DNA from: Eutreptiella sp. 'Long Island Sound 2002'
Taxonomy: Eukaryota > Euglenozoa > Euglenophyceae > Eutreptiales > Eutreptiaceae
DNA length: 64,000 nucleotides
Direction: 5' to 3'
Assembly (NCBI GenBank): GCA_964036045.1
Contig: OZ038381.1
Coordinates: forward strand, 112,394,922-112,458,921
This document shows positions 22,395 through 59,125 of the stretch, in pieces (position 1 is the first letter of the stretch; each line of letters begins with the position of its first letter). The translations under genes were made by a program, and so were the position numbers. The notes under the pieces were generated by a model. That model did not search any database and was not told the DNA's origin. It saw only the letters and a program-made list of their open reading frames with translations.

Positions 22395-22419
22395 CTTAGG
22401 CGGCTCTATACGCATGTAG
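22395..22419 (+). repeat. E1 left terminal inverted repeat
   Basis: Reads CTTAGGCGGCTCTATACGCA then TGTAG. The reverse complement of 28891-28915 is identical except C for T at position 21. Confidence 0.93.
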
Positions 22420-22600
22420 CAAAATTGCCACAGTTCCCAAATGGGTACCACCCCAAAACGGGGGCTGAAAAACCACTTTGAAAAATTGCACAATTGTGCC
22501 TTGCAGGGAACACCCCCAAAAACCTGTGAACTATCCAAAATGACTGTGTCTAGGGGGTACAACATGTGCCAGTCAAAAGTCATGTATCCCCTTCAAATTT

Positions 22601-22946
22601 GGGCACTGCAGTGTCCATCCAAAGAAAAATCCAATTCTTCGAAATCATCCGCTGCCGCATTTCAAACCACACCGTAAAATGCAACCTGAAAAATGAAGCA
22701 AGGAGGACGACAGGCAAACACATGCAAAACTCTGGTTTGCTTTTTGTTACCGCGTCTGCTGACCCAGTCACTGTAATTGTATGCAAAGCGTGACAAATAA
22801 TGCACCACCAGTGGTGCCGACAAACAACGGAGGCGCCGCCAGTGCAGCCAATGCAATAATAAATGACGGCAACAATGCCTGCAAAAGAAGTGGCGCAGCA
22901 GGGGTAAAAAAATGGCGAGTCGCTGAATTTGGGCACTGCAGCGCCC
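22601..22946. repeat. E1 palindromes 1-2 in the 3' region
   Basis: 22601-22616 GGGCACTGCAGTGTCC and 22931-22946 GGGCACTGCAGCGCCC, each one mismatch from the E1 consensus. Both follow AATTT. They lie between the end of gene B and the left terminus, where I see no further gene in about 600 bp. Confidence 0.85.
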
Positions 22947-23158
22947 GAAATTACCAAAACATGAAAAAGGGCACCAGTCTCACACCTGCATAGAACAGGA
23001 CGCGCGACAGTGTGCAAATCGAGGCGAAAAAACTACTGACATGGACACAGGCACTGCCAACCGCACAACGCAATCTACTTCTTCTTTGGTGGAGCCTTCT
23101 TACCCTTGGCCTGACCTACTTTGGCGTAAAACATATTGAGGGGAGTGCTGTCCTTGGC

Positions 23159-25802
23159 CTATTTGGCTGGCCTTTTGGGGGGATCATCAACCTCATCCCT
23201 ACTGTCGTCGGAGGACGGCTTCTTCTTGCTGGGGGTGCTCCTCTTCTTGCTGTCACCACCTCCGACCAGCACGATCTCGTCATCCTCCTCTTCCTCCACA
23301 TCGTCCCCCCCCTCCTCATCTTCCCCTTCCCGAGGCCGCTGCACCACAACTGGCATACAGTCCCTAATCCTTGGCATCCAAGCGTCCCAGTTAACCAAGT
23401 AGACACAGTCCATCTCCTGCACATACGCCGCTAGCTGTTCACAGAACTCGTTAAACAAACCCTGGCGCCCAGTGAAGCAAGCTGCCAGACAGGGGGACTC
23501 AGGAAGGCAGGACAGGAGCTGTGCTGGCAATACAGCCGATGCTGTCAAAAGCAGGAGCGAGACTTCATCCTCGGACTGTCTGTCGCGTCGGGGAACAATA
23601 CCAAGCACACGCAGGAGCCAACTAGCCGCTGCCACACCTATGGTGCTGCCGTATGCACCCTGATCGCAAATGAAAATATTCGGGACCTTCACCCTAAACT
23701 TGTCGGGCACACAGAAGCAAATAGTCCTCTCCTCGAACCGATAGGTCGGGTGACCGACTGCCTGATCAAAAAAAGAGGTCATAATATACTGCCAGCCTCC
23801 ACACTCCTCAGAGTCCCGCAATTGATTAACCAGGAACTTAACGTCGGGCGCCATTCCACCAATAGCCACAGGTACCAACTTCGCAGCAACCTTCAGCACC
23901 AGCGGATGGATATCGTCCATTTGTTCCTTCGTACACTCAATGAAGACCTGTTGTCAAAAGCACATTTCATTACAGATGGGCACTGCAGTGCCTAAAGTGA
24001 CCAGCAATGCGAAATCGATCCCATTCTTATGCCTAATGGTTGCATACCGCTTTGTACTCCCTCAATGCAATCGTATACGGGATAGCCTTGCCAGGAACCA
24101 ACGCAATTGCCTCTGCCCGAGCTCCGGTTGCTTCAGTCCCATCATGCGGCTTGTTGAGCCGAATAGTTGTTGATTTCTCCCCATCAGTCGTTGTCACTGC
24201 AGTTTCCTTGACAGGCCTCGCCAGCGCAATCCTCAGGTCAGCCCATTCCTCATCCTGCCACAGCGGTGCTTTCTGGATGGTGTCCCAGCTTGGTAAGGGA
24301 TTTTCGGCACTCTTGGTTCATTTCCCCAGTGACAATTTGGCGGCCCTCGGCGACTTTGCAAGCAGTTTGCGGACCCTTTGCATTTCATGCACGTTCACTG
24401 TTAGAACAGGAGACCACTGGTACCGCTGGGATCGAAACACCCTTACGTCGTGGGTCCGGGGGGGGGGGGGGGGGGCAACAGCGATCGCGCCAGACCCTGC
24501 CGCCCCATAAACATACGTCGAGAAGGATGGATGAGCGTGTTGTCCGGGTGAAGGTACAGCATCTCCCACAGGCGGTCCCGCTTCAACAGTCTGGCCTTGG
24601 CATGTAGTCCTGCGATCTTGGCCCCATCTCCAGCCAGGTACAGCAGTATTTCATCCATCTGGTCACCATGCAATCCCGTCAACGGCCGCAAAGTGTAGGG
24701 GTTGAGCACTGCAGTGCAAAAATTAGGGTCACATCGAATTTGGGCACTGCAGTTCCCATGATCACCAAAAGACGACGAAAACAGGTGCTCAGAGGACATA
24801 ATACCTTCACCGGCAGTCTTCTCAAAGGTGTCAATAAACTCAGCCACGCGGCCACCAGATATCTGTAGTAATGAAACCAGCGGTCTCCAATTTTTCCAGA
24901 TTGAGTCTTGGCAGGGATACAGTGCTGGACAGGCCACAATACGCAAGGGACTGACAACGGTGGTCTCATCGTGCATCTCTCATACCACAGATGTTTTCTC
25001 GCCCAGCCGGCCACACTTCCGCAGAGCCACCAGCAGCCTCTCTTTCGCTTTGCCCTTCTGCACTTCAGTCCAAATTCGAGCGGCCACTTGTCCCATACTC
25101 AGCTTGCTCACTGAGTGTTGTACCGCATTGTGATCGCCTCCAATAATCTCTCTGATGTCAACAGGACAGTCGTGTCTGATCTCCTCGCAGTAGACGTGTT
25201 GTAACCAGTCCGGCAGTGCCCGTGACTTCTCACAGTATTCTCGGTGAAGTCTTTGGAGTGCCGCCAGGATATGAGCCCCGCCCAAGCAGTAGGGAATTTC
25301 AGCTGATGGAAGACTGCACCACAGGGAGATGGGAGATGGGAGATATCAGCGAGATGGGCACTGCAGTGCCCAAACGACCAGACTGTGTGAAAATAACGAC
25401 GGGCGTGTGACAGGATGGTAGTGTACCTTCGTTTCGCCATATGAGAATGTTTGAGATAGGCCGGCAGGGTGGATTTGTCCTCAGGCTTGCGATCCGCGAT
25501 AGTACTGAGTCCTCGTCCCTCTCTCTGGTCTGCCCACGCGTGAGGTCGGTGTCAAACTTTATCTTGGTCAGCTGTATCTTGACCAGCTCCTTTTTGATCC
25601 ACGTTGTCCGGAATGTTGCCGTTGCCCGGTCTGTCGCCGTCCGCTTCACTGGAGCCTGCCCCGACTGCGCCCGTGTCTTCTCTGCTGTGTGAACGGCTTG
25701 CGATGCGGTCCGCTGCTCATCCCCTTCCGGCAGTTCGGTCTCCGAAGCATAGCTTAGCAAAGGGGCTAACAAAGGGTCACACGACGCACTACAAAAGGCC
25801 AC
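23159..25802 (-). CDS. E1 gene B: accessory protein with IHPSRRM motif (interrupted)
   Basis: Multi-exon gene downstream of gene A. Exon 1 (from about 25802; its upstream start is unclear and no ATG is obvious) contains IQLTKIKFDTDLTRGQ and ends at a GT donor at 25426. A 124-bp intron (25303-25426) joins in phase to EIPYCLGGAHILAALQRLHR. The next part holds LLKRDRLWEMLYLHP and IHPSRRM (about 24520-24545), then continues past an in-frame TGA (24318-24320) into WQDEEWADLRIALARPVK. A 100-bp intron (23948-24047) leads to FIECTKEQMDDIHPLVLKVA and an acidic then basic tail (EEEEDDEI, SKKRSTPSKKK) ending at TAG 23159. After that stop the frame reads on to GKKAPPKKK. E2 gene B matches it in order along its length. 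The function is unknown; the charged tail suggests nucleic-acid or chromatin contact. Confidence 0.65.
23948..24047 (-). other. E1 gene B intron containing a palindrome
   Basis: A 100-bp interval with donor GTATGC (24047-24042) and acceptor ACAG (23951-23948). It separates coding ending EYKA from coding starting FIECTKE. The palindrome at 23978-23993 sits inside it. Confidence 0.6.
23978..23993. repeat. E1 palindrome 3
   Basis: GGGCACTGCAGTGCCT, one mismatch from consensus, inside the intron-like interval 23948-24047. Confidence 0.85.
24704..24757. repeat. E1 palindromes 4-5, close pair
   Basis: 24704-24719 GAGCACTGCAGTGCAA and 24742-24757 GGGCACTGCAGTTCCC, 38 bp apart. They flank a possible mini-intron of gene B (GTGATC donor at about 24762). 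The CTGCAG of the first copy could supply the 3' splice AG, and splicing there would keep the frame. Splice use is inference. Confidence 0.75.
25303..25426 (-). other. E1 gene B intron containing a palindrome
   Basis: Donor GTACAC at 25426 and acceptor CATCAG at 25303, joining the coding phases on both sides (GAAG to CTGAAATT gives Glu then Ala-Glu-Ile). The perfect palindrome 25356-25371 lies inside. Confidence 0.6.
25356..25371. repeat. E1 palindrome 6
   Basis: Perfect GGGCACTGCAGTGCCC inside the intron-like interval 25303-25426. Confidence 0.9.
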
Positions 25803-25831
25803 AGGGCTGCAAATTGTTGATTTACAGGCTT

Positions 25832-28137
25832 CTAATGTTGATGACTACTGGCAGCGCTCGACGATTGAACACAGATGGCAGAAATAGCATCACAGTCGGA
25901 TGCACTTGGTAAAAATCGAGGGTCAAACTCATTCAGCTCCGAAAGGACAGCCACGGGGGCATCCGAATCATCACTGTGAACAGACACTGCTTCTGGAGGG
26001 GGGGGGTCCGGGTCCCATCCATCATCACCCACAAAATCAGCAGCCCTCAGGTCTGGATCTCTGGCTGCCCCATCAGCGGGGGGGGGGGGTCCTCATCACT
26101 GTCACCGTCGGCATCAGCATTGGGGGCGGCGGGTATCCGGGCAGGGTCCCTTTGCGCAAAAGCGCGTGCTGGCCGGCGTCGCTTGTACCGGTCTGGTGTA
26201 TTACATGCGCGTAACACGTCCTGTGCCTGTGCTACTGTTGTGTCCATATCACCTGGAGGACGTTGTGGCACGTGTCTACCCAGCTCTGTCATCACGTCAG
26301 CATCAACTTTAACAGGTTTAACAAGTGTCTGCAATGTCTTGGCACATAGATCTCGGTAATGCTCTGCAGTGAGCACCGTATCTAGTGCGCAAGGAAAATC
26401 CATCTTGGCAGGATCCCACCTGTCTTGCACGATACTCGACTTCTGACTGGACCAGACCAGGGGGGGTATAACACCAACATCAAATCGCGCCATCAATCTG
26501 GTGAAACGACGATCAACCAGTTGTGGCAATCCCTTGGGAACATTAACGTACCGCACGTCCTTTGGGGTCTGGTCTGCAACGGGAGTGAGTATAAACAGGT
26601 CATGCCCCTGTTGCAACGTACAGTTCCCACGGTGTTGTGCCATTAAGTGCACAACACGGCTTAACAGGGCCTCACACGGTTCCTCACTGTGTGCCACACC
26701 AGGTAAGCGGGCAAACCACGGGGACCACACCAGCCTAGCAACAACACTGGTGCGCACATATTCAACCTTGTCCTCATAACCTAGGGTGAGCCTCAGAAGG
26801 ATGTGTAGGCAACGGCTCAACAATGGCCCTGCAGCGTGCTGCTCTCCCTGTGCAGACCAATGACAATCCCTCACTTGCGACCCAATAATAAACAAGGTTG
26901 GAATGTAACCATATAGCAGTGTTACCAACCCTTGCACCTGTGTAAGAAGTGTGCTGTGATTAGCGTTACCCGGTTGGTGCAAACCCCTTAGAGTCTGTAA
27001 CTTCTGTTCCAAAGGTTGGCGCCACTTGTGGGCCAAGTGCAAGACAACCAGAATCATACGCTCCATATAGATGAGTTTCGGAAAGTTGGGCACTGCAGTG
27101 CCCGAATTGAGTGAACCATAGGAAAAATAGGTAAATAAAGGGAAGAATCTTCTGTAGCACAGGGTTACACAATATTTATATGGGTGCCATGTGCCATACA
27201 CTACCGGGGTACGTGTAATGAACAGGGGCACTTTGTACCGAGCATAGCTGATGCTGTAAACAAGCTTAAGGACACGGTAGTGGATATTTTCGTCGACCAA
27301 CAATGGAAGACGGTGCTGTGTGTGCTGCTGCACCTCCTGGAGCCCGTGAATAATAGAGACAAGGTCGGGGGTAGCGGACACAATTAGGTCTGTGAGAAAA
27401 AAGGGGGTCCAAGCTGGGCTGGTAACATTAGCCCGTCGTATGTCCAAGGGACAACGAACATGTTGAAGGCGGATGGGGTCGTCCATCAACCCTTGCAAGC
27501 CATCAATGAAGTTTTTATGGCTCTGCACCAACAAGTCTGCAGTGTACCCAATCCTCTGCCGCAAGACCGAGAGGCTAGGAAAAGACGGCATAACGTCAAC
27601 TGGTCGTTTCAAGAGTATGATAGCACCAGCTGTACAATTAAGGGACCGGTTCTCATTACCAGGCACAGGCCGGAAGTTACGTCTATAAAAATTATCAAAC
27701 CACAGAACAGCGGGTTTACCTTCCAAGGTCTGCCAAAGACTGGTGCACGCAGTTGCTCCTTGAACTGCAAAGGAGGGTACATTGTAAGAACATTGACCCG
27801 TGTGAGCCAAACACCTACATTGCACACGACTCTTGGGTTGAACACCTACAGCCCTCTTGGCACGTGGACGACACCTCTTGTGTAGAACAGACCATATATT
27901 AAAAATCTCTTGCTCAGCAACACGGAACCATTGGTCCGGCAGACAATTAACGGTCCGCCTGTCCCTTTGTTGGATGTATTCACCAACAGACCGCCTACTT
28001 CTCCACTCCAACCGCAGATCTAACACCCACGTACAAAACACATCGGCACCCTTATCCACACCCACAGCCTCAAACAGATCCTCCTTTGAAGCATATACCT
28101 TCGAACTAAGGAACTGCCGGAAGGGAGCCGCATCCAT
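25832..28137 (-). CDS. E1 gene A: DDE-like transposase candidate
   Basis: Starts at ATG 28137 (CCATGG context, MDAAPFRQFLSSKVYASKED). An open frame upstream to 28302 is probably leader. From the ATG one frame runs about 696 codons to TGA at 26047. Conserved blocks shared with E2 gene A are WFDNFYRRNF (Asp about 148 from the ATG), LLVDENIHYRVLK (Asp about 282), VVYGTWHPYK, RRFFPLFTY, GVAHSEEPCEALL (Glu about 485) and RHVPQRPP. The D, D and E in these blocks are my candidates for a DDE triad. The true C-terminus (PVAVLSELNEFD, matched in E2) lies in another frame after a 12-G run at 26078-26089, ending at TAG 25832. The palindrome 27088-27103 lies within the coding frame. The superfamily is not recognised. 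Confidence 0.72.
27088..27103. repeat. E1 palindrome 7, inside gene A coding sequence
   Basis: Perfect GGGCACTGCAGTGCCC, translated on minus as SGTAVPN between the FFPLFTY and PKLIY blocks. The E2 protein has the same number of residues between these blocks but no palindrome, so here the motif appears to have been accommodated in coding sequence. Confidence 0.85.
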
Positions 28138-28438
28138 GGACAAAAGTCCTGTTCGCAGGCAGCAAAGGTAAGGGGACAAAGAAAACAGAGACACTATCAC
28201 AAAACAAACCTGATGCGGCATAGACCAAAAGCAGCTAGCGAAGATCCAAACAATGTATCCCCCAATGGACGTGGAACGTTCCAAAGCCTGCGTACACTCC
28301 AAGGTGGCAGTCTGACATCCGGCAATATATTTCCAATGAGCAGAGGATGAGTACCAACGTCCGATGATTCATACGTCCTTTGTCAGGTGTTACGCAATGG
28401 GAACCAATAGGAGTGAAATACGGAGTTTTCAATTTTTT

Positions 28439-28695
28439 GGACACTGCAGTGCCCAAAAGTACTGGAAGTCCATTTTCAAGTGCACATTTGGACAGGAATG
28501 GAAGTGATTGGGCAAGGTACATTGTACGTGGCCTTCCGAGTATAACACCGCGGTGCGATGACCCATGGATAACGGGTATGCCAAGTTTTGATGCATGTTG
28601 CTGCAGTATGACATCACCTGTGGAGATGACTACAGAGGTGTACTGGATAACCCACTGAAAAAAGCCATTTCAAATTTTTGGGCACTGCAGTGCCC
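28439..28695. repeat. E1 palindromes 8-9 in the 5' leader
   Basis: 28439-28454 GGACACTGCAGTGCCC (one mismatch) and 28680-28695 GGGCACTGCAGTGCCC (perfect, within a longer dyad AATTTTTGGGC to GCCCAAAAACTTT). They lie between the right terminus and the gene A start, where promoter sequences would be expected. Confidence 0.85.
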
Positions 28696-28890
28696 AAAAA
28701 CTTTAAATGATACAATTTTCAGCCCGGAATAGGGGGTGTATACGTACACCTCTGGAAGCAACAAAAGGCGAGGTTGTTGTATCCCACGATGAAAATCCAC
28801 GTGGGGTTGGCCGAAAAAATGATATGCTTTTTTTAGGTGCAAAAAACAGATGTTGAAATCGCCATGAATCGTGCCTTTTAGCAACGAAGT

Positions 28891-28915
28891 CTACGTGCGT
28901 ATAGAGCCGCCTAAG
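28891..28915 (-). repeat. E1 right terminal inverted repeat
   Basis: CTACGTGCGTATAGAGCCGC then CTAAG, the reverse complement of the left terminus with one mismatch. Confidence 0.93.
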
Positions 28916-30540: not shown

Positions 30541-30542
30541 AC

Positions 30543-30590
30543 CTACCCTTGGTACACGCTAGAATACCCAATCTCGTTCTAGCCTAGAAC
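30543..30590 (+). repeat. E3 left terminal inverted repeat
   Basis: CTACCCTTGGTACACGCTAG, then AATACCCAATCTCGTTCTAG and CCTAGAAC. It matches the reverse complement of 35884-35931 except for two adjacent bases at positions 22-23. Confidence 0.92.
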
Positions 30591-30850
30591 AGGCTAGAGA
30601 GGCTAGAACGGAAAAAAGAGGGGGATACCCCGCCCGCAGGGGGGGGGGGGGTATGAGGTGTCGAACCTGGACCCCCCTATCCATACTCGGGGGCCCATAC
30701 TTTTTTTTATACAATTTCACTGTTTTCACCTGATTTTGGAGGCCAAAAAATTTTCGTTCTAGCGGCGTTCTAGCGACGTTCTAGCGAGCGTTCTAGAATG
30801 CTGCTAGAACGCCGCTAGAACGGTTCGCTAGAACGCCGCTAGAACGATAT
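30563..30850. repeat. E3 CTAG-palindrome cluster near left end
   Basis: Dense GTTCTAGC, CTAGAACG and GCGGCGTTCTAGCGACG motifs at 30569-30612 and 30752-30847. The second group contains a long dyad around CTAGAATGCTGCTAGAACG. A G-run (30640-30651) and AT-rich sequence lie between the groups. No gene is seen here; it is likely the 3' side of the E3 transcription unit. Confidence 0.8.
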
Positions 30851-31137
30851 ATATCAATGCTCCGCCACTCCTCAAAGAGAAGCTGCCCCGGCTACCATGG
30901 CAAGCCGTGGCCGATCACGGGGTCCCGATGCTAGACCCGACTCACGGAGCGCCGGGTTCCCCCCCCCCACCCCCCGGTTAACCCGGTTAGCCCCCCACCG
31001 CACCCCATAGGTCACTTGGAAGGTCACTTGGCGGGCCGGCGCCGGGTCACTTGGTGGTGGGTCAGCCCGATTAGCCCGGTTAGCCCGATTGGCCCCCTGC
31101 CCCCCCAGGCCTCCAATCGCGAGTCGCGACACGCAGG

Positions 31138-31833
31138 TTACCACTCCTGCGTGGTGGGGGGTTGCCGGGGCTCATCCTTGCTCCCGGCACCACCCTTCTC
31201 ACCCCCAGCCCCCGTGTCCCCTTCCTTCTCACCCCCCTTGTCACCCCCCGCCTCACCCCCCCCCCCCTTGTCACCACCCTCGTCCCCCTCGTCATCCCCG
31301 TCATCCCCGTCGTCCCCGTCGTCCCCGGCCTCCAAGGCCTCCCGGAGGTGGGCCTCCGCCTCCTCCCGGGTGAGGAAGAGGAGGTCCCCCGCCACCCGGA
31401 GGGTGCCCCCCTCTTTCTCCCGCTTCCTCTTCTTCCCCTTCTTCCCCTTCTTCCCCCCCTCCCCCTCCCCATTGGACCCCTGCGACACCACCCACCACTC
31501 CCCCGGGTCCAACTCCCCATCCCAATCCCCCAACACCGTCACTTGGCTGACGGTCCCCCCATTGATCCCCTCCGCCCAAGGGACATACCGGGTGTCCCCC
31601 ACACCCGGCAGATTCCCATAGGGGTCCCGGCCCCTTTCTTGCATAGGGGCGGGCTAGGGTTCGGGGGGGAGGGGTGGCTTTGCCCTTGCCCTTGGCCTGC
31701 GGCTTGGCCTTGGGCTCGGGCTTGGGGGGGCGCCTCTTCTTCGTCGCTACTCTCGAAGTGGCGGGGTTTTTTCTTGGAGGCCTTGGGGGGGGGTTTGGGG
31801 GCCTTGGGGGGGGTGTCTTCACCCCGCTGCTGG

Positions 31834-31872
<39 letters not shown>

Positions 31873-33738: not shown

Positions 33739-33739
33739 C

Positions 33740-35698: not shown

Positions 35699-35829
35699 TG
35701 CAAAGAAATGTGCAATATCTAAGCGGGAAAGAAGGAAGCATGGAACAATGCACTACGGACAATAGCAAGCAACCATGCGCGCACGCACGCACGCACGGAA
35801 CAATGAAGAAATTGGGATATGTTGGTAGA

Positions 35830-35931
35830 CATTATATCGTTCTAGTATTGATCTAATCTAGGCTAGAACGTTCTAGCTAGAGCGTTCTAGGCTAGAACGA
35901 GATTGGGTTCTCTAGCGTGTACCAAGGGTAG
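35830..35931 (-). repeat. E3 right terminal inverted repeat and CTAG cluster
   Basis: The TIR proper is 35884-35931. Just inside it, 35838-35884 carries CGTTCTAGTATTGATCTAAT, GGCTAGAACGTTCTAGC and GAGCGTTCTAG. It lies upstream of the gene A start. Confidence 0.88.
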
Positions 35932-36630: not shown

Positions 36631-36852
36631 AATATGGGTACCCAAAACAACTATTTTGTCCGAAAAAGGCCTTTTTCAATGGGTTGGAATGGAGGATATG
36701 GTTTCAAAAATTCTAAAAAAATAAAATACAGGTCCCTACGAGAAAAAACCACCCCTTTTCCATATATTGCGTGGCCATGGTAGCCGTGTAATGCCCTATT
36801 CGTACTGTGCCGTTCGCCTCTGTCTGCTGCGACCCTTGCGAATGCGAATCTT

Positions 36853-36887
36853 GGACAAATTCGCGCGAACTTCGCGCGAACTTGTCC
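36853..36887. repeat. E4 long CGCG palindrome
   Basis: A near-perfect 35-bp dyad beginning GGACAAATTCGCGCGAACTT and closing CGCGCGAACTTGTCC. It lies downstream of the last coding block of E4 and is the clearest copy of the E4 motif. Confidence 0.85.
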
Positions 36888-36913
36888 TATATTCGCGTAC
36901 AGGTATGCACATC

Positions 36914-37140: not shown

Positions 37141-37294
37141 GATAATAGGCAAAAAGCAATGCATGTTGATTATGAAAGTCAAGAAAGTCGGACAAAGTCA
37201 GCCCCATTGGCATCCACCGCACGACAAAATATTTTTACAACACATTCGTACACCCCATGTGTTGGGAACCACTATTAAACACAAATACTGTATA

Positions 37295-42400: not shown

Positions 42401-42404
42401 CACC

Positions 42405-47911: not shown

Positions 47912-47953
47912 CTTAGGAGGCCCATAGTGCCCCTTATCGTTTTTTCAAAAAAA
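47912..47953 (+). repeat. E2 left terminal inverted repeat
   Basis: CTTAGGAGGCCCATAGT, then GCCCCTTATCGTTTTTTC and an A run. The first 17 bases are identical to the right end in reverse complement. Confidence 0.92.
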
Positions 47954-48370
47954 AATTCATGTCCTGCACAGACCCTAGCCTCTCTGCTGCATAGCCAAGC
48001 GTAACGGAGGGGTGGTTCCCAGCCTGGGTGTATGGGGAGGAGGAACGACACGCAATTTAGGGCTGCGAAGCAGCCAAAAGGCACCATTTTGGGCCCCCAC
48101 AGCATGCAAGCGCAGCCACTGTTTTTTCCAATTTTGGAGGTCTGAAATACCGAAAATGGACCAGTCGCACCATAAAACTATGTTTCACAGTCTGATATCA
48201 CAAATGGAGCACGTAGGTGGCAACGGCATGTGCTGCGGTTCTTCTAGCACCCGTGGTATTGTAACGGCAATCATGACCTTACATGCACCGCCTGTGAAGA
48301 AGGTGTCCCCTATCACAACAGAGAACAGCACCTGTACAAAAGGAGGGTGCAGGGCAGCATTTCTGAAAGG

Positions 48371-48520
48371 CTGGGCTCTGCAGAGCCCAGATACATGAAA
48401 TTCACTAAAAACAGGGGTAATAGTACAGGGTGGTACACCAACACAACAGTGTACAGGCAAACAGGTAGTAACAGGGCGTTAAATAGGGAATTCCTACTGG
48501 CTGGGCTCTGCAGAGCCCAG
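48371..48520. repeat. E2 palindrome pair near the left end
   Basis: Perfect CTGGGCTCTGCAGAGCCCAG at 48371-48390 and 48501-48520, 130 bp apart. They lie downstream of gene B. Confidence 0.92.
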
Positions 48521-49857
48521 CTCAATACAAACATCACAAAGCACCCATGAATTACGCTATTGATAAACAAGCCAGACCACCAGTGTAGTAATGGCTACAA
48601 TAGGCATCGGACTATACCCCCCCCCCCGCCCCCCCCGGCGAAAAAAATCTCAGCGCAATAAGCGATAGACCACTAGAGCACCAGTCATACACAAGGCATG
48701 GAAGCTGTACACACTAGTTGACGAGTCTAAGGCACGATAACACACAAAACAAGGCACAGAAGTTGTAAAAACCGTTATGTGCGCTGTAGGAGGTCCGCCA
48801 AAACAACAAAATTGGATGGTGTATTGACTACAGAGTGATGTGTCCCCAGATGTGGTTCACAAGCACCTACTAACACCTGGCCACACAAAGACTGTTCCCC
48901 CTTCTAAGTTCCGAGCAAATGTTGAACTATCGATAAATGGTTGACACCAACAAAAACCTGCCACAAATCGCATCAAAAAATTAAGCATCGCAAAGTAGAC
49001 AGTGTGAGGCCACTATCCAACATACGCACTGTCAACCGCTGGAGAAATGAAAAGACACGGGCCCAACAGATCAATGCAATTGAGCATACATGACAGCGAG
49101 GAATAAAACGTGGCTCAGCGATAAAAAGCAAACCTGTGCCCAAACTACTGACTTGAAATTGGACTCAGGGCATACCTGGTAAACTCGAAACGACAGACAC
49201 GTTCAGCTGAGCTCTGCAGGGCCCAGGCACGGGCAACAAAACATGTCAGGACCAAATCAGGGTTACAAAAGGCATCTGGACTTTGCAGGGCATGGACTGA
49301 CAAAAAAATAGCAAGAATTAAATGATCTGGGGCTCATACACACAAACGTGGCACCGTATATGGACCACAATTGTGAGAAAACTCGACAGTTGGCACACTG
49401 TGTCAACGAGGGACGTACCAAAAGAAATGCCACAGCACAATGTTGTGCTGATACAACCAAATTCACACAGGGACACAGGGACACTGTTGAGATGAAAGCA
49501 GCACTGCGTACCACCAGGAGGCATGCAAATTGGCCTCAAACAACCTGCTAGGCTCTGTAGAGCCCAGCAGTATAAAATTGTTCATATTCGGGGGCAAATC
49601 AAGCAAATCTGGCAAGCTGGGCTCTGCAGAGCCCAGCTCAGTGCAAATTAAAAAAATGAGCGTCAAATTCAGCCACGAACACGTACAGCGTCAAACAGGC
49701 ACATCATTCACTGTCCCACAACCATTTGGGACTGCACAGGACAGGCCCAGTCACATCAGGCGCTCACAAAACCAGCACAGTAACACGGACGCGTCTGTGG
49801 TTGTATGTCCGGTATGGTCCAGCGACAGTCATGATCCAGCGGTATGTGGGGCCTCTA
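48521..49857. other. E2 3' non-coding region
   Basis: About 1.3 kb downstream of gene B without a supported gene. It holds palindromes at 49207-49226 (two mismatches), 49548-49567 (CTAGGCTCTGTAGAGCCCAG) and 49617-49636 (perfect). The last two are spaced 69 bp. Confidence 0.7.
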
Positions 49858-49858
49858 G

Positions 49859-52800
49859 TCACTTGCCGTTGCTCTTGCCGTTGCTCTTGGACAAGCCAAC
49901 CCGGACACCACGTTGCAGGGTGGTCTGCAGGCCCTCAACTGCCCTTTTTTTCTGCGATGGGGACGCCCCAGCGGCTGCCGTTGCCAACTTATCCTCCTCT
50001 TCTTTCCTCTTGCGATTTGCTCGTTCGTCCTCTCTTGCCTTTTTCTCCTTCTCCTTCTCCTCCTTCTTGAGTTGCTTCTCCCGTGCCTCCTCTTGCTTCC
50101 GCGACTCGCGCTCCGCCTTCCCATGATCTTTCTGCCGCTGCTTTTCGGTGTTTCTCCCCTTCGGCTTGGGAGTTTGCGGATCCGGCACCTCCTCGACTTT
50201 TGACTCACTCGTGTCCGCGTCTGCTGCCTGGTCAGGGGACTCCTGCCGGAACAGCGGCTGCCCGGTGCTTGCCCAATGTGTGACACTCCGCCATTCAACA
50301 TCCTCCTCCGTGTCCCCTTTCCGGACGCTCGTCTTCAGCAGGTTCACCACATCAGCTGCATTGTAGGGACCATCGAATAGTACACCCCATGCGCAATTCA
50401 ACGGGACAGGCAAGTGAATACAGCCCAGACTGATCAGGTCGGGGCGGCGGCCATAGTACAGTGCCCACAGGCAGCGCGATGCATCACCATTCATGTGCGT
50501 GTCGTCCGAGTCTTCGTTGGGGTCCTCCGGCGAATTCACCAACCACCACAAAATAGCCAGACCCAGCCACAGACCTTCAGTGAACGACTTTTGTGTGAGG
50601 AAGTCCGGCACTGCAGGGCCCAGCCCATGGGTCTTCACCAGCAACAAGGTTGACTGCTCAAACAAATATGGCTCTTCTCGGCGCCCAAGGTGGTACACAG
50701 CCATGCGGAAAGCCGTTGGGTACAAATCTTCCAATTGCGACCGCAAGTGTTGTTCCACAGCGACCAAATCCCCATGGTGTCCATGAAAGGCGCCAAATAC
50801 CCCTTGAGACAGCACACGCACGATCTGCGCGCCAGGGATCCACCCTCCACGCCGCGGGACTTCAACAATGACGAGATTGTACTTCAGCATTTTGATCTTA
50901 TTTGGGACTGCGGTCACCGATCCATCGTACGCCCAAATTTCTCCAGATTCTGACCCCTTGCCAACATTGACCTTTGCCACCTTGCCACCAGATACCTCAA
51001 CAGCTGGGTTCAACACTGGTGTCACAAGCAGTCTGCGATGGGCTTCGACATCTTCTCAATCGCTGACCCACAGACCTGCCTTCAACAGCGCCTGGAGCGG
51101 TGGCCAGGGCGTGCTCTCGCTGTGCTCCCAGCCCCCCTGCCATGCACCAAAATTCGCCAGACGGTGACTAAACTTCTTTGAGATGCGAGCCACTTCAGTC
51201 TTTGTGCCTGTGTGTACAAGAGCCATAGAGAAGGGCAGGAGGGCAGCGATCCACCAAGTCACAGCGATCCAGCAAAGCGTAAATTTGCATTTTGTTGGAT
51301 CCTGGGCTCTGCAGAGCCCAGTACTGTCAAATTGGTAACATGAAGGCTGAAATTGGTCACTGTGGTTCATCTGGGCTCTGCAGAGCCCAGCATGACTACA
51401 TTGGCAATTTAAGGGATGGCCCGGGGGGGGGGGGGGGGGTTGTGGGACATCAATAGGCCAGGCCGCAGTGGTCAACAGGTCCAGCGTCAAGAAAGCTTCA
51501 ACAAGTCCAGCGTCTCTGTACATGCAGTCGATTGGCATCCCAAGGGATCCTGGGCTCTGCAGAGCCCAGAACTCTCTAAATGGTAATATGGCGTCTGAAA
51601 TTTGGTCAACTCCCTCCATCTGGGCTCTGCAGAGCCTAGCATGACGAAAATGGTGAATTAGGGGGTGTCCCGGGGGGGGGGGGGGCTTGGACATCATTAG
51701 GGCAAGAGTGCACCGGTAATCGGGAGTGAAGTTGCGGAAGTTCGGACAATCCAACAGATCCAGCGTCTCTGTACATGCAGTCAATTAGCATCCCAGGGGA
51801 TCCTGGGCTTTGCAGAGCCCAGAACTCTCCAGATGGTAATATGGCGTCTGAAATTGGTCAACTCCCTCCATCTGGGCTCTGCAGAGCCTAGCATGACCAA
51901 AATGGTGAATTAGGGGGTGTCCCGGGGGGGGGGGGGGGGCTTGGGCATCATTAGGCAACAGTGCACCGGTAATCGGGAGTGAAGTTGCGGAAGTTCGGAC
52001 AATCCAACAGATCAAGCATCTCTGTACATGCAGTCGATTGGCATCCCAAGGGATCCTGGGCTCTGCAGAGCCCAGAACTCTCCAGATGGTAATATGGCGT
52101 CTGAAATTGGTCAACTCCCTCCATCTGGGCTCTGCAGAGCCTAGCATGACCAAAATGGTGAATCAGGGGTTCTCCCGGGGGGGGGGGGGGGGGCTTGGAC
52201 ATCATTAGGCAAGAGTGCACCGGTCATCATGAGTGAAGTTGCGGAAGTTCGAACAATCCAACAGATCCAGCGTCTCTTTGCAAGCTTGCATGCAGTCAAT
52301 TGGCAACCCAGGGGATCCTGGGCTCTGCAGAGCCCAGCAGACCCAAACTATCACACTGAAATCGGTCATTACACTTAATCCAGGCTCCCTGTCGCAGCGG
52401 CCCAATCACAACAAAAGGCAGGGGCTTACAAAGCAACAGCATACGTCGTGAAGGGTGGATGCGCTCAACTGGCATGTCGGGATGACCAAAGTGATACCAC
52501 CACGATTCCCCAGCGCGGAGCTCCTTTGCCAGCTTCTGGAAGCCCGGTACCGTACTCTTCGGCGAGGCCAGGTAGTTGCATACGCGCCACAAATTGTCGG
52601 GTTGCATTCCAGCAAAGCATCGCATTGTGTAAAGGGCAATCACCTGCTTGCGTTCCACCATCTTGCCGAGTGCGTCCGTGAAGGTGGCACCACAGGTCAG
52701 GGCCATATGGCCAGCTGGCCTCATTTGCTTGACGATTGTCTCCGTGTTGCCGGATTTTGCAGTCAGCCCCGCCTCCACGATTGCCTCACACATCAAGGTG

Positions 52801-53552
52801 ACAGCTGTCTTCTTGCATTGTGTGTCCTCAGCCGCCAGTTGGAGGAAATTGTTCAACAAGTGGGGTACACTGCTCTCACGCCCACTGTGCTGCGCCCTAT
52901 TGTGTTGTCCGGCCAACTTTCGCCTGATCTCGACGGATGTATCAAACTTGATGATGCGCACGTCAAAGTTAGTCATCCAGTCCTCGACCTCGCCCATCCT
53001 TGCTGTCACATCCTTGCAAATTTCATCACACGCCGCAACGCCGTGTTGGCCTCCAATCACCCACAGGGCTCCCACTGAATACAGCAACATGGCAGGTCAC
53101 ACAGGGCAGGCCGCGAAACCAATTACGTTGATCGAGTTGCGTCGCAACAATCCCATACCTTTGTCGTCCCAAACCAGAAGCTGCAGTCCGCCATCGGGGG
53201 GGTTTGCCAGTAGGTCCTCCTTCACCTCCGCCACGTGGTCCCAATCAATGATCCTGGATTGGCCATACTCAATGCACCTGTCAATCTTAAGTTCCTTGCG
53301 CGGCACCTTCGCTCTCCGCGCCTCCACGTAGTTTTGAATGGCCAGTACGGTTGAGGAGTCCTTGATACTGCCCATCTTCCTTGCGACACAACCCTTGTTC
53401 ACCACTTGCGAGGGAGATTGACTGGCCTGGCTGGCCCCAGCAACAGTGCTGCCCTGTACAGCATCCTCTATGGAGGGCTCTCACTGCAGTGCGTCCACTT
53501 TCTCGGCTTCCAGTGTGTCCATCGCTGGTGTCTCAGCGGTGTTGCCATCCAT
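49859..53552 (-). CDS. E2 gene B: accessory protein with IHPSRRM motif (interrupted)
   Basis: ATG at 53552 in GCCATGG context (MDGNTAETPAMDTLEAEKVD). TGA 53481-53483 interrupts the frame, which continues EPSIEDAVQGSTVAG, KVPRKELKIDRCIEYGQSRI and VKEDLLANPPDGGLQLLVWD. A short intron (about 53075-53119) leads to VGALWVIGGQHGVAACDEIC, DVRIIKFDTSVEI, ALGKMVERKQVIALYTMRCF, GESWWYHFGHPDMPVER and IHPSRRM. A repeat-filled gap (52340-51060) follows. The last block (51060-49859) has NPAVEVSGGKVAKVNVGKGS, EPYLFEQSTLLLVKTHG and WALYYGRRPDLISLGC, then a lysine/glutamate-rich coiled coil (EKQLKKEEKEKEKKARED) and a basic end. The KFDT, IHPSRRM and PYxFE blocks align in order with E1 gene B. Function unknown. 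Confidence 0.66.
51295..52340 (+). repeat. 253-bp tandem repeat with paired palindromes
   Basis: Four units of about 247, 253, 254 and 261 bp begin at GGATCCTGGGCTCTGC near 51298, 51545, 51798 and 52052, with a partial copy at 52313. Each has two palindromes 69-70 bp apart, a G homopolymer of 13-18 and TTGCGGAAGTTCGGACAATC-like sequence. The array lies between two coding blocks of gene B, in a probable intron. The first unit is the most diverged. Confidence 0.93.
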
Positions 53553-54139
53553 GGCAACTTCGTTTGGTATGTCACACATGGTCCAAAAACACACGGACTT
53601 TACAGGACAAATCAAGTCACCAAAAACGGCACAACAATCACACAGTTCAAAGCATCAATGGTGGCAAATGGCGGATTTGGACAGCAAATTAGTCGGATCA
53701 AAGCATTCAAATTGGCACCCACGTGGGTTGAAATAGCCAAAACTGTCTTCAAAACAGCAAATCACTGCAGAGGCATCTCAAGTACAATGTCCAGGGCACA
53801 TTGATGGTCACAGCATCAAACAGGCCCACTAAAACGTCCCTCGTTGACACATGTATGAACCAGCTGGAAATTGGGCCTGTGCAAATGGCCTGCAACACCA
53901 CAGCCAAACCTGCTTGTGGCAATTTAACTCAAATAATCGTAACAGTGAGTACAGCAGTGCCAGGCACACCTCTTCGAGGGTCACACAGGCTGACGCAGCG
54001 GGTGCACACTACAATACGAAAGAATGGAGATGTGTGCACAGATCAAAGCACGAAGATGGCATGGTCCAGGACTGGCCCAGCCCTAAGAAAGGAACAGCAA
54101 ATGACCAGATGGGAGTACATATCGGGCAGTGGTGACAGG

Positions 54140-54472
54140 CTGGGCTCTGCAGAGCCCAGAGTAACAACAACTAGTAATACGACCCCTTAAAAATCAGTGT
54201 CAGGCAAAGCTGGGCTCTGCAGAGCCCAGAGACTTGGGGTACAGTGATAGCAGGGGTGTAAACATCAAATTTGCCTGTCTGGGGGGGGGTTGCATTGCTA
54301 CCCCCCTCGATGATCGATGAAAGCAACAAGAAACCAACTGAAAATGACCAGATACGGGTACATATCAGACAGTGGGGATCGGCTGGGCTCTGCAGAGCCT
54401 ACAGTGTCAAAAACCAGTATTACAACCCCTGAAAACTCAGTGGCGGAGAAAGCTAGGCTCTGCAGAGCCCAG
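54140..54472. repeat. E2 palindrome pairs downstream of gene A
   Basis: 54140-54159 and 54210-54229 (both perfect, 70 bp apart), then 54383-54402 and 54453-54472 (one or two mismatches, 70 bp apart). The two pairs share related 50-bp spacers, so the pair is a duplicated unit. Confidence 0.9.
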
Positions 54473-54559
54473 ACTCTGGGGTACAGCAATAAGTGGCCTG
54501 TACACACCAGATTGGCCTGTCTTGGGGGGGGGGGGTCTGCATTGCCACCCCCCCCGTGA

Positions 54560-57500
54560 TTAGTCCGAGTCTATCAGGTCAAATTCACGCAACTCCTCAC
54601 TGAGCACAACAGGTACAGGGCCATGAGACAGGGCATCAACATCTACAGCATCCCTCGCCCGCATCACAGGTACGCCATCCTCAGGGGGGGCACGCACATG
54701 ATCAATGAACATTGCATTTGGCACTGGGGGAACAATGTGCTCCATTGCAATTGGTATGAACCCAATTGCTTCTACAGCTGCCCGGGCCTCGCGGCGGTTC
54801 ACAGGTGGCCTAAGTGGGATATGTTGACGTATGTAAGCCATGGCATCATCGCGAAGCCCTTGTCCACCTACTAGGGTGCGCAGAAAGCGCTTTAGAATAG
54901 ATTTCATGAACACAAATGTTAGGGTACCCCCGGTTCCCTTTTCGGGGAACACGTACGTTGTGTCTCTTTCTGCCTCAACCACACTAACTGGACCCGAGGA
55001 CCATCGCACAGTTGGATGCTCCTCCCGTCCTGCACCACGCATGCGTGCCCATACCCTGTCGCGCACCTCAACACACACACTTTCGGAGAATGACTCCGTT
55101 GCACGTGCCTCCTGACGGGGGGGCATGGTGCGGAATAGGTCACCAGCCTCATCCGCCGTGTGCTTGTCGGGGTGTTGCTTGCACCGTGCCCGCAATTTTG
55201 CAAGCAGGGCCTCACAACATTCCTCCACATGGGCAGCACCAGGCGCGTCGTCGTGCCATTGTGTATTGTACAGAAGTGCACAGCATATGGTACGGACATA
55301 GTCCATTTTTGCTGCAGATGGCCCGGCTAGGTCAACAAGCAGACCCACGCAGCGCTGAAGTACACACGTGGCCACTATACCAGTCCCGTCGGCGCGCCCA
55401 GCCCAAGTGCAATTGCGCACTAAGTGTCCTACTACAAAGATGGCTGGGAGGTAATAATTCAGGAGGCATTCAAGGCCCCGAAAAATGCGCAACCCATCCT
55501 GTGTGTTTAGGGCTGCTTGGTTGGCGCGTCCCTCAAACAGGGTAATTTTCTGCCGAAGTTGTGCCCGTATCTCCGGGGCTGAGAGAAGGAGGGCAGCGAT
55601 GGTTTTCTCTATTACAATGAGTTTGGGATGGTTATATATGCGCGCACCGGCCCCAAACACGGGAGCGGTGATGTACGAAAACAGAGGAAAGAATTTACGC
55701 CAAATGATATTGCAAACATGTTTGTAGGGGTGCCAGACGCCGTAAATCAACGAGATACCCCGCAACCAATCCGGAAAATTCCAGTCAATGGTTGCTCTAG
55801 AGTACAAAAATTTGAGCACCTGGTAGTGGATGTTGCAATCAACGAGCAATGCCATAGGTTTTTGACAATGCCGTTGGGTAGTGCGTAGCATATCGAGGAG
55901 ATCCAAGAGCTCTTGGTTCTGACCTGTACGGGACTCATATATGCCGAATGGCTTCCAAAAGAGTTGCTGTCTACCAGCCTCCCGGGCAACATCGAGGGGG
56001 GCACGGATGGTTCTCCGAGAAATGGGTGTATTGCACATATCAGTGCACACCTTCAACATTTCTTTGTGCTGTTGAACAACTGCCATGGCCACTGTGTCCA
56101 CCCGGTCCACTAGGTCACGCAGACTCGGGTGGCCAAGAAAATGAGGAAGGGGGGTTGTGTGCAACACCGCTATGGCAGTCGCATCTAGACAGACAGTGGG
56201 TTTCACCGGATTGGCCCGAAACTGGGCATGCCACCAGTTGTCCACCCACGCACAATATCACGGCGAACAATGCTACGCCACAGTTTCCCGAACTGTAATG
56301 CCCCCTGGTCTGCAATAGACAACCGGGATGGCTTGGTGATACCAGCGTGCACCAGCTTGCGGCTGTCTGCCCGCATTACAGCAATGGTGCTCTCACCACT
56401 GGGGACGGCCGCTTGTGGCAAGGCCATGCGACGCATCCCCAGCCATACATAATAGGCCTCCTTGGAAAAATTAGTTAGCCAACGCGGCCATTGTTTTCGT
56501 GCCAACACCTTGCGAATGCGGTCGATCGTAATGCGGGTCCGCTTGTTGACACGTAGACCCGCACAGAATCTTATGAATTCCTTTGCCACACCATGGCGCA
56601 CAGCCGACAATATCATTTGGCGACCAGTGCGCCATTCTGTCTTACAAAGAGACCGCATGTAGCTGACATGCAACGACATAGAAACCGGTGCCATAGTTAT
56701 AAGACAGCCTGGGTGGCACAACAGGAAAAGGTGGTGACCAGAACAGGTAACTAGAGGCGTAGACTAGCACACAAAAGGGGGCAAAATGGGAAGTGGTGAA
56801 GGTCTGGGCTCTGCAGAGCCCAGCCAACAGAGAAACCCCAATAAGCACCCCTCAAGTACCAAGGTTATGAGTGCTGGGCTCTGCAGAGCCCAGCGTCCCG
56901 TAATCAGTAATGGCGGGCCGTGTAATAGACAGAGGAAAAAGAGGGAGGGACGTGCCACAAGCAAAGAATTGAGAAGGGGTAAAAGTAGCATTTGGCGCAA
57001 GCTGGGCTCTGCAGAGCCCAGGGTCCCAAGAAATGATAGTTGGGGGTGCAAACCACCCATTTGGGGAGTAGACCAACCACTTAATGCATCACAGAGTTTT
57101 CCGGTATTTGGCCGGGGGCATATCAGGGAGTAATGACCACCGTGACCGATACCGACCATCCTTCTTTACCGGGATAGTAGATGGTTGTGGGGGGGCAGAT
57201 GGAGCCACATCCGGCGACAATCCTACATGCGCATGTGGCAAAAGTGAGTACCTGGGGGTATGTCGGTTGTCCGCATAAGCGGCAGTGGGCAACACAGAAG
57301 TGCGCGGGGGGGGATGCAGGAGGGAACTCCTTGGGGGTAGTGCATTATCAGACAGGGGCAGCGGGGCGCTAACTGACCGCCTACCACTGGAGGTGACTGA
57401 ACTGTGACTCAGGGCAGGGGGGGTGCCTCGATGTGGTACAATCACTGGTGGCAACAGGCTGTATTTTGACTGCCCACCGGTGCGGTCTGCTTCCACAGGT

Positions 57501-58123
57501 AATGGAAGGGACCTTACGTGCTGGCGATCGGAGGGGTGCCGATCAATCTGTGTAAGTGTGGGTTGGTCGGCATCCGGGGGAGGAAGTGGCCGAGGAGGTG
57601 GGATACGGGGATGGGGAGACAACTCAACAGGGGGACGTGATTCTGGATTCAGTGTATCCAGGATCAATGCAGCCCGCTCCTCGCTGCGTGACAGAAAATT
57701 AGATCGGCATATCCGATCCCCTTGTTGCCATGTGACGGGGGGGTTGCGCATTGGGTTCCGCAATGCAAAACGGAACCGTGCACGAAGCCCCCAAATGTAC
57801 TGCACGAACCATGGTGCCTGGTCACCACTGTTGTCCCTCAGCAACTCCATTGTCTTTGGAGTCAATGGGTCATTGAGGGAGGCCTTTGGTGGGGTTGGCT
57901 GGTCCTTGGGGACAAGCTTTGGTGGCCGCGGTGGGGATGGGGGTGTTGACCCCGTAAACATAATCGCCTCTTGCAAGGCGAGCGTAGCTGCAGCACGCGC
58001 TGCTGTTCCACTGGTTGATGGGACCGGTAAGGGTACAGGTCCTACAACCTCATCTCCTTCATCATCCTGGCCGGAACCCCGTACATCCACCTCCGTACGT
58101 CTAGCATGTGGGAAATCAGCCAT
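54560..58123 (-). CDS. E2 gene A: DDE-like transposase candidate (frameshifted, multi-block)
   Basis: Block 1 starts at ATG 58123 (AGCCATGGC context, MADFPHARRTEVDV) and runs 344 codons. It has WFVQYIWGLRARFRFALRNP, which aligns with the E1 gene A N-terminus, then a Pro-rich part with KYSLLP, RYSLLP and RWSLLP at residues about 220, 291 and 328. A gap of about 360 bp with three palindromes follows (57088-56722). Block 2 (56721 to about 56250) reads KRTRITIDRIRKVLARKQW and TNFSKEAYYVWLGMRRMAL. A one-base frameshift at about 56255 leads to block 3: CAWVDNWWHAQFRANP, LLVDCNIHYQVLKFLY, YGVWHPYK, RKFFPLFSY, AAHVEECCEALLAKL, IRQHIPLRPP and VVLSEELREFDLIDSD, ending at 54560. Asp of VDN, Asp of LLVD and a Glu of HVEE are the candidate DDE residues. 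Confidence 0.72.
56804..57021. repeat. E2 palindromes between gene A blocks 1 and 2
   Basis: Perfect copies at 56804-56823, 56874-56893 and 57002-57021. The first two are 70 bp apart and share a 50-bp spacer (AATAAGCACCCCTCAAGTAC) with the pair at 58551. They lie in a probable intron (GTGATG donor at about 57091, CCACCCAG acceptor at about 56722). Confidence 0.9.
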
Positions 58124-59080
58124 GGCTGTTGTAAAAGGAAGATAGCATGTTACATGTACTTAATATACGGGACGTATGACCAGATAGTAAATGTACGAGC
58201 ACTGCACAGTATGCATAAAAACCAACTGCAATAGATTAGGGTATATTGCAAACAATGTGTCCTAAAACTCCCATAGTATCGGACGCGCCACAACAATAGA
58301 AACACTACCCCACTGGACCCTGTTGGACTACACTGCGTGCAAACAGTCCAAGGCTTGTTGCAACGTACTCCTGAATGGCGACTGTCATACTTACACAATG
58401 CCATGGGTGCACCATTGTAATACACGATACAACAGCAACGCGGCAGAAAGGCAAAAAAAAATACTACCAGACCACATGTTGAATAAGTTTCGAAGTGTCA
58501 TAGCGCTATTATGTCACACAAAAGGGGGCAAAATGGGAAGTTGTGAAGATCTGGGCTCTGCACAGCCCAGCAAATAGGGAGACCCTAATAAGCACCCCTC
58601 AAGCACCAAGTTTATGAACTCTGGGCTCTGCAGAGCCCAGGTTGTTGAAAAATCCTAATATAAGCCTTGTTTAGGTAGTTCCATCTAGAATATGTGATGC
58701 CTGGTGTGGTAAGCGTCTTGGATCATTGCCCACTGGTAATGTATGTAGGAGTTGTATCCTTGAATACTGTTACTGCTGACCTGTCCGGGGACAATGTTTA
58801 GGTTGAATGTGTTACAATGTCAACGAGGGTATACCACTTAACCCAGCGCCATGTAGCGTGGCCACTTGACCACTGTATACAGGTGCCGAGTGTTGTACCG
58901 GGGGTAGGTACAGAGGGTATAACTTGTAACCTGGGCTTTGAAGAGCCCAGAGATCTAAGATGTGTAATATTGGGGCCAGAAATGGCTTACACGGCTGGTC
59001 TGGGCTCTGCAGAGCCCAGCCTGATGAAAAAATGCAAATTTGAACCCCCATTTTACCATACGCAAAACACCAGCCATCAC
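58124..59080. other. E2 5' leader with palindrome pairs
   Basis: About 950 bp between the gene A start and the right terminus. Palindromes: 58551-58570 (CACAG variant) with 58621-58640 (perfect), and 58931-58950 (two mismatches) with 59000-59019 (perfect), spaced 70 and 69 bp. No further gene is seen. Confidence 0.75.
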
Positions 59081-59083
59081 CCC

Positions 59084-59125
59084 TTTTTTCGCTAAAACGA
59101 TAGGGGGGACTATGGGCCTCCTAAG
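59084..59125 (-). repeat. E2 right terminal inverted repeat
   Basis: Ends ACTATGGGCCTCCTAAG. In reverse complement it matches the left terminus over 42 bp with five mismatches. Confidence 0.92.

Follow-up and report, generated by a model that had tools for sequence, protein, structure and literature searches.

Palindrome-centred modules of about 100 bp in the non-coding DNA of two Eutreptiella transposons

We analysed a window of 64,000 nucleotides from the euglenophyte Eutreptiella sp. 'Long Island Sound 2002' (contig OZ038381.1; by the window we mean this whole stretch, to which all positions refer). Four stretches of it, called E1, E3, E4 and E2 in the order of their positions, each carry many copies of a short dyad motif. 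An earlier note, made from the letters alone, had described four elements with terminal inverted repeats (TIRs), each with a private motif in its non-coding gaps. E1 and E2 are our main subject: in both, the motif is a palindrome at the centre of a module of about 100 bp.

The transposons E1 and E2 and their genes

E1 (22395..28915, minus strand) has the TIR CTTAGGCGGCTCTATACGC and the target-site duplication (TSD) ATGTT, and further copies of it were fetched from the genome (L007-L019). E2 (47912..59125, minus strand) has the TIR CTTAGGAGGCCCATAGT and the TSD TTGTA. Both begin with CTTAGG and end with CCTAAG, and both TSDs are 5 bp long. The genes lie on the minus strand, as the earlier note had it, and several open reading frames (ORFs) of these copies are broken: the window copies are damaged by one stop in gene B of E1, two stops in gene B of E2 and a frame change in gene A of E2.

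Gene A of E1 (26050..28134) is a single exon encoding a transposase of 695 aa. It matches the cluster of P0001 (288 sequences, 96% identity) and 31 further clusters, 29 of which are 27-39% identical to it. Its counterpart in E2 (54563..56710), delimited from ORFs and homology, changes frame near 56210-56260. The structure model of the transposase is RNase-H-like (mean predicted local distance difference test, pLDDT, 85.8). Its best structural matches are the P element, Hermes, Transib and RAG1, with modest Z scores (9.5 to 6.8), and the protein is therefore probably of the RNase-H type; the superfamily is not settled by these fold matches, the list of which leaves room for other superfamilies. 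No MULE (Mutator-like element) transposase was matched in Pfam by P0001, P0004, P0008 or P0007. The CMCT group (EnSpm, Transib, Plavaka, ESTA) mostly has 5'-CA..TG-3' termini and TSDs of 2-5 bp (PMC12730594). The termini of E1 and E2 are CT..AG, although their TSD is 5 bp, and the C(2)C and H(3-4)H signatures of that group between the second D and the last E were not seen when the protein sequences were inspected by eye. Searches for E1 transposase loci in viral and bacterial/archaeal collections gave no lead, and motif scans of the same collections were uninformative (two matches, without similarity to E1 or E2). Scans for tRNA and Rfam families found nothing. We recognised no description of these elements in the open-licence literature, which was represented mostly by titles and abstract openings.

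Gene B of E1 (23162..25844, minus strand) has several exons, delimited from ORFs, homology to gene B of E2 and the protein P0003; it has an in-frame stop near 24319, where P0003 has W. P0003 joins a transposase to a stretch of gene B, and is therefore probably an internal-deletion derivative. Gene B of E2 (49862..53480, minus strand) consists of an exon block (~53480-52345), an intron (~52345-51240) and an exon (~51240-49862). Its in-frame stops lie at 53097-53099 and 51056-51058; P0067 and P0099 continue across these positions. One piece of this gene matches 66 protein clusters (the largest of 99 members) and another 50 (the largest of 118). A third gene, gene C, was seen in E2 (57092..58123, minus strand), where it is an ORF of unknown kind taken from the ORF listing, without a Pfam match; a BLAST of all ORFs of at least 40 aa found no counterpart in E1.

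The E1 and E2 transposases share 31% identity over 486 residues; for the gene B products it is 27-33% across pieces of 59-70 residues. On the strength of both comparisons E1 and E2 are distant members of one transposon lineage. That large protein clusters match the E1 transposase and gene B of E2 suggests that both families are abundant.

The palindromes, their modules and their occurrence in the genome

All four motifs occur far above chance, both in searches allowing mismatches and in an unbiased count of 8- and 10-mers. With at most two mismatches, the E1 motif has 24 matches in the window (0.03 expected) and the E2 motif 29 (0.05 expected), each search partly catching the other motif. In the unbiased count these words rank first or close to first within their own element. 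They are rare in the other three and, satellites apart, in the remainder of the window, in keeping with the earlier observation that they were not noticed elsewhere. The E2 core is a palindrome of 20 bp, CTGGGCTCTGCAGAGCCCAG. The 16-mers of E1 and E2, GGGCACTGCAGTGCCC and GGGCTCTGCAGAGCCC, differ at a single symmetric base pair; the neighbouring bases further out often differ as well (TT..AA vs CT..AG). Because of this near-identity and of the homology of the two elements, the motifs are not independent: E1 and E2 carry one motif, and the idea of four independent motifs, one private to each element, had to be abandoned.

We retained 25 E2 sites with at most two mismatches in 20, of which 14 served as representatives of duplicated groups in several tests of flanks, placement and orientation. 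The E1 site at 24702-24721, which has three mismatches and overlaps its neighbour's flank, was excluded from most counts. Coding intervals were taken from our own gene models, made without transcripts and trimmed in places at motif sites. According to these models none of the 25 E2 sites is in coding DNA, which makes up 5,695 of 11,214 bp (p 2e-8, or 4.9e-5 with the 14 representatives), and one of the eight E1 sites is (p 0.003). Three sites lie in open ORFs that the models treat as introns (52318-52337 in E2, 25354-25373 and 24740-24759 in E1). When these are scored as coding the fractions become 1/25 (p 4e-7) and 3/8 (p 0.075). On that scoring the non-coding placement claimed by the earlier note still stands for E2 and weakens for E1. 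The single coding exception that it had reported in E1 is real.

The E1 sites are spread over the element; fractions in brackets are the other copies, among those covering the site, in which it is identical. Two lie in the leader (28678..28697, 10/11; 28437..28456, 9/11). The coding site, in the transposase gene (27086..27105), reads TTGGGCACTGCAGTGCCCAA in 13/13 other copies, and its flanks also fit the module described below (rank 61 of 49,470). Another site (25354..25373, 11/11) occupies a putative short gene-B intron in an open ORF with splice-like signals. A second putative intron, of 57 nt (24709..24765, minus strand, GTGATC...CTGCAG), is open in frame and was recognised by splice-like signals and, by eye, by its frame; it holds the site at 24740-24759 (13/13), and the extra residues that it would encode are absent in E2. 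A third, of 100 nt (23948..24047, minus strand, GTATGC...AACAG), was placed by eye and holds the site at 23976-23995 (10/12). The last two sites are in the 3' region (22599-22618 and 22929-22948).

In E2 most sites form pairs. Two pairs lie at 58931..59019 (69 bp apart) and 58551..58640 (70 bp). A pair (70 bp) and one further site lie between genes C and A (56804..57021), and two pairs of 70 bp each lie between genes A and B (54140..54472) in a 243-bp tandem duplication. The gene-B intron has four pairs (69-70 bp) and one site (51302..52337), partly in a 253-bp tandem repeat. One pair (49548..49636, 69 bp) is 3' of gene B, and three further sites lie at 48371-48390, 48501-48520 and 49207-49226. 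Of the 24 gaps between neighbouring E2 sites, ten measure 69 or 70 bp, in five groups. The spacers of pairs from different groups are 0.28-0.57 identical (shuffled sequences have a mean of 0.42 and a 95th percentile of 0.52), and the palindromes themselves are nearly perfect.

The palindrome is the centre of a module of about 100 bp in E1 and E2, which is a new result. To either side of the dyad, in E1 as in E2, the content of A+T (W) peaks about 12.5, 19.5, 28.5 and 40.5 bp from the centre, with G+C (S) in between. The power of this alternation near 10.3 bp exceeded that of every one of 3000 cyclically shifted sets for E2 (0/3000) and was significant for E1 without its coding site (p 0.0007). 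A strict 10-bp periodicity does not fit the peaks; given their uneven distances, we prefer to speak of an extended site with roughly helical alternation. The flank profiles of E1 and E2 correlate (r 0.46, p 0.0004). Outer flanks of E2 sites, on the side without a partner palindrome, show the pattern too (0/2000 random non-coding sets reach it); a search there for decayed partner palindromes at 70 bp gave no clear excess.

The flanks of one family also predict those of the other. With the central 20 bp ignored, a matrix built from E2 flanks scored E1 flanks with a z of 7.6, and the reverse comparison gave 9.4, with a peak at offset 0 that decays within 2-3 bp. When the window was scanned with the E2-flank matrix, the E1 sites ranked 17, 44, 61, 136, 313, 784, 947 and 7672 of 49,470 positions; with the E1-flank matrix, 11 of the 25 E2 sites were in the top 95 and the others ranked from 210 to 12,445. 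In a leave-one-group-out test, 22 of 28 E2 flanks scored above the 95th percentile. Flanks of the same side predicted the other family better (median percentile 0.97) than those of the opposite side (0.80-0.89), and the modules mostly share one orientation relative to the genes (8/8 in E1, 10 or 12 of 14 in E2 in two scorings). The module is therefore symmetric in A/T versus G/C and asymmetric in A versus T, which suits a reading of DNA shape or of the minor groove; T-rich sense strands may contribute to the asymmetry. The similarity of the flanks argues for a module that may act at the DNA level, by binding or bending, with a family-specific core.

The 2.28-Gb genome has 866 exact matches to the E1 core, against none to the reversed control (0.53 would be expected at even base use). 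Among the 50 places listed for this core, 39 were within 8 kb of another, and 20 of 25 gaps were near the spacings within E1 itself, 1.59 or 1.73 kb. The four loci that were fetched with the core come from two places, and all of them match E1. In one, L003, the match is limited to an element end: it covers 239 bp, which in the window include a palindrome site. Rarity outside its own family, which the earlier note had named as a check, is thus borne out for the E1 core, and these counts show its family specificity genome-wide.

Thirteen other copies of E1 were chosen by clusters of exact core matches among those listed for the first part of contig C1 (L015-L019 are less regular). They are 92-97% identical to E1 over the aligned part and carry the same palindrome sites where covered, which answers the other check for this family; the E2, E3 and E4 cores were found in none of these 13 stretches. 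Mean identity is 98.2% in the palindromes, 95.6% in their flanks, 95.8% in other non-coding DNA and 96.3% in coding DNA. Because the copies had been found by exact cores, constraint was counted at sites not used to find them, leaving out those at 28680, 27088 and 25356. Three well-covered unused sites have four changes in 720 bases where about 30 were expected (P 2e-9), and all five have 13 in 839 where 35 were expected (P 1e-5), both values treating bases and copies as independent and ignoring shared descent. The two leftmost sites, covered in four and two copies as the fetched stretches ended early, were counted by hand. For E2, other copies were seen through the read-through proteins: the palindrome before the last exon is intact in four of seven and altered in three, and that at the first intron site is intact in one and altered in another.

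E3, E4 and the surrounding sequence

E3 (30543..35931, minus strand) has TIRs of 55 bp (CTACCCTTGGTACACGC, 91%) and a possible 2-bp TSD, AC, noted by eye. Its motif, CTAGAACG, has 22 matches against 0.6 expected and occurs inside the TIRs, in one array near the left end and in three gaps between ORFs (32145..32198, 33570..33682 and 34834..34902). The half-sites are mostly 11-13 bp apart, partly as inverted arrays. The array near the left end (30755..30846) has four CGTTCTAG followed by four CTAGAACG and one with a mismatch, mostly at that distance; its 92 bp are similar to the span of an E2 palindrome pair (89-90 bp). None of the 22 sites (0/6 clusters) falls within a putative ORF, where three touch ORF ends whose edges we trimmed.

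The E4 region (36844..41079, minus strand) is marked by dyads of TTCGCGCGAA, some with a mismatch, of which seven matches were found against 0.02 expected; its ends are not established as those of an element. The dyads recur 11 bp apart at 36860/36871, 37349/37360/37371, 38960/38971 and 41055/41066, with single ones at 37297 and 39026. No TIR with a TSD was found, the inverted ends being the motif itself, and the supposed left TIR (36844-36896) is part of a 53-bp palindrome with 26-nt arms that are 88% identical. Of the four TIR elements first described, E1 and E2 thus hold with TIRs and 5-bp TSDs and E3 with its TIRs, and E4 is no longer to be counted as a proven one. A dioxygenase-like protein had also been named for E4. 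The E4 ORFs and one joined piece match no profile, of TET/JBP or of any other 2-oxoglutarate (2OG) dioxygenase, and the gene model is uncertain, which leaves the dioxygenase unsupported. The motifs of E3 and E4 are unrelated to those of E1 and E2; their partly similar layout, in non-coding DNA with helix-like spacing, would be convergent.

Long satellite arrays fill 1-14382, with a unit of 52 bp followed by units of 41 bp that switch strand near 2,300 and 11,140. Pentamer arrays of TCACA/CACAT (16234-16772 and 18711-18935) surround a 47-bp repeat with GGGCAGTG-like words loosely resembling the E1 core. An exon at 60540-61277 encodes the stalk region of an axonemal dynein heavy chain; its nearest matches are chains of 9e5c and 9y6s, and we conclude from it that the host is a flagellate. 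A degenerate TAGGGT array, telomere-like and internal to the contig, lies at 60072-60175, and a GC-rich tandem array of 91/182 bp at 62761-63662.

A candidate binder, its alternatives and known systems

We tentatively favour a reading in which the modules of E1 and E2 are bound by a protein of the element itself, most likely the product of gene B, that keeps its own family open. Binder, bending and anti-silencing effect are what we infer from the modules. The product of gene B, as a dimer, would bind the two-fold core of each module, and family identity would reside in this core, through the one symmetric base pair of the 16-mer. The shared flanks, with their roughly helical phasing of AT and GC, would help the DNA to bend or wrap around the dimer. 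With modules in most of its non-coding stretches, every copy of the family could be marked or coated by the protein, and the genes of the element would stay accessible for expression or transposition, an effect like that of VANC on VANDAL. In favour of this, gene B is conserved between E1 and E2 and its product has, by eye, a charged tail. As a candidate it is preferred to the transposase for two reasons: the transposase has the TIRs already, and in E1 and E2 these do not contain the palindrome; and the accessory proteins of VANDAL offer a precedent.

Several results weigh against the reading with gene B as the binder. Its product has no recognised domain in Pfam, NCBIfam, PADLOC, PHROGs or PDB sequences, and the transposase could be the binder instead. 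The non-coding bias of E1 loses significance once open introns count as coding, and a strong E1 site (27086-27105) is coding in any case. Variation is higher at the two leftmost E1 sites than at the rest (7/79 changes at 22929-22948, 2/40 at 22599-22618), and the fit to the flank matrix is poor at the E1 site at 22618 (rank 7672) and the E2 site at 49226 (rank 12445). The flanks are as variable among E1 copies as other non-coding DNA, so that no extra constraint on them is seen among recent copies. The prevailing single orientation of the modules could also come from a role in RNA or from strand composition. Finally, CpG depletion is mild and not stronger in the elements than around them.

The transposase might use the modules as binding sites for end recognition, synapsis or enhancement of transposition, as in elements with subterminal repeats; we consider this possible but rather doubtful. 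In both E1 and E2 there are sites at a distance of about 110-600 bp from each terminus, the E3 motif is inside the E3 TIRs, and the transposase is conserved together with the motif. Most sites are however internal, in introns and between genes, and the palindrome is missing from the TIRs of E1 and E2.

A bolder version of the gene B reading extends it to a new kind of transposon protein, possibly ParB-like, that would load on dispersed palindrome modules, bend or wrap them and coat the element against silencing; its specificity would be switched by one symmetric pair with the flanks kept, and E3, perhaps also E4, would have converged on a similar layout. We regard this as unlikely. The lead is a GGQH...A stretch and a later AGQHNRAQH stretch seen by eye in gene B, which are reminiscent of ParB/Srx or DGQHR proteins; the searches for domains given above returned no profile match for them.

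An architectural or insulator-like protein of the host could bind the modules, as Su(Hw) does on gypsy, where clustered cores have AT-rich flanks and bending matters (PMC2374998). The AT-phased flanks of E1 and E2 would agree with this. We nevertheless think it improbable: the core differs between families, and at the loci examined the E1 core is in E1 DNA, whereas a binder supplied by the host should also have sites elsewhere.

Equally improbable is an action of the palindromes at the RNA level, where hairpins in leaders, introns and 3' regions could influence splicing, stability or silencing. The non-coding regions that hold the sites are probably transcribed, most sites share one orientation relative to the genes, and seven stretches that contain single or paired palindromes have strong RNA folds (z -2.9 to -6.5), although such folding does not discriminate. 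A role in RNA does not call for AT and GC to alternate at set distances to either side of the dyad, the W/S symmetry with A/T asymmetry suits readout of DNA shape, and some sites are close to the element ends.

That the palindromes are functionless leftovers of local duplication that were never removed is highly improbable: some sites do lie in the 253- and 243-bp tandem duplications and the flanks show no extra conservation among E1 copies, but the palindromes are nearly perfect while the spacers of independent pairs are near random identity, cores in other E1 copies change less than the rest, the 69/70-bp spacing recurs, and the flanks are alike between families whose transposases are 31% alike.

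If the favoured reading is true, self-recognition through dispersed non-coding motifs would have arisen outside one plant transposon lineage, with another transposase and another accessory protein. With similar flanks and one symmetric pair of difference, the E1 and E2 cores would lend themselves directly to an experiment in swapping specificity, and chromatin factors could be targeted through the modules as natural addresses of high specificity.

Among known systems, bacterial ParB-parS uses 16-bp palindromes, and the dimer that binds them can spread. The size of the palindrome is a likeness, and given that gene B matches no profile it is only a lead. The subterminal motifs of Spm/En, bound by TnpA, and the subterminal repeats of Ac/Ds are repeated sites for a protein of the element, and TnpA also affects the methylation of its element; unlike in E1 and E2, these sites do not extend beyond a few hundred bases from the ends. 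The gypsy insulator shares repeated cores in transposon non-coding DNA with AT-rich flanks, the bending of which aids binding, but its binder is encoded by the host, it is a single cluster of 340 bp and its core is not a palindrome (PMC2374998). The MULE Muta1 of Aedes has a palindromic terminal motif and subterminal repeats, which are described as parts of the TIRs, in contrast to E1 and E2 (PMC5225508). DNA transposons of fungi that bear TET/JBP carry an extra gene thought to counter silencing (PMC12730594). The extra gene is a shared trait, whereas the E4 pieces match no TET/JBP or other dioxygenase.

The closest likeness is with VANDAL, and here the observations of the earlier note are confirmed, strengthened for E1 and E2 and reduced for E4, and its interpretation is partly supported. 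In Arabidopsis, the VANC anti-silencing proteins of VANDAL transposons are accessory proteins that read repeated non-coding motifs and remove silencing (PMC5735166, PMC10398659). The motifs of VANDAL21 lie in introns, intergenic and terminal non-coding DNA, arise from tandem repeats located in introns and upstream regions, and change by one letter from one subfamily to another (PMC5735166). The parallel drawn by the earlier note fits this anatomy closely: E1 and E2 have a family-specific motif in introns, intergenic and terminal non-coding parts, the targets of E2 are in tandem repeats of 253 and 243 bp, also in an intron, related families differ by one symmetric pair, and both systems have an extra gene besides the transposase. 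With VANC as a precedent, the suggestion of a new class of self-recognition is not supported. VANDALs are MULEs, whereas E1 and E2 have 5-bp TSDs and a P/hAT/Transib-like transposase fold. DUF1985 and DUF287 gave no match, at E values up to 10, for P0067, P0033, P0046, P0094, P0098, P0099, P0100 and the gene-B exon of the window. The VANC21 motif is a non-palindromic word of nine bases (PMC5735166), whereas that of E1 and E2 is a palindrome of 16-20 bp in a module of about 100 bp, paired at 69/70 bp in E2. The system of E1 and E2 thus appears VANC-like by its layout and, as judged from sequence, not a member of the VANC family, and the unusual extended module would be its new element.

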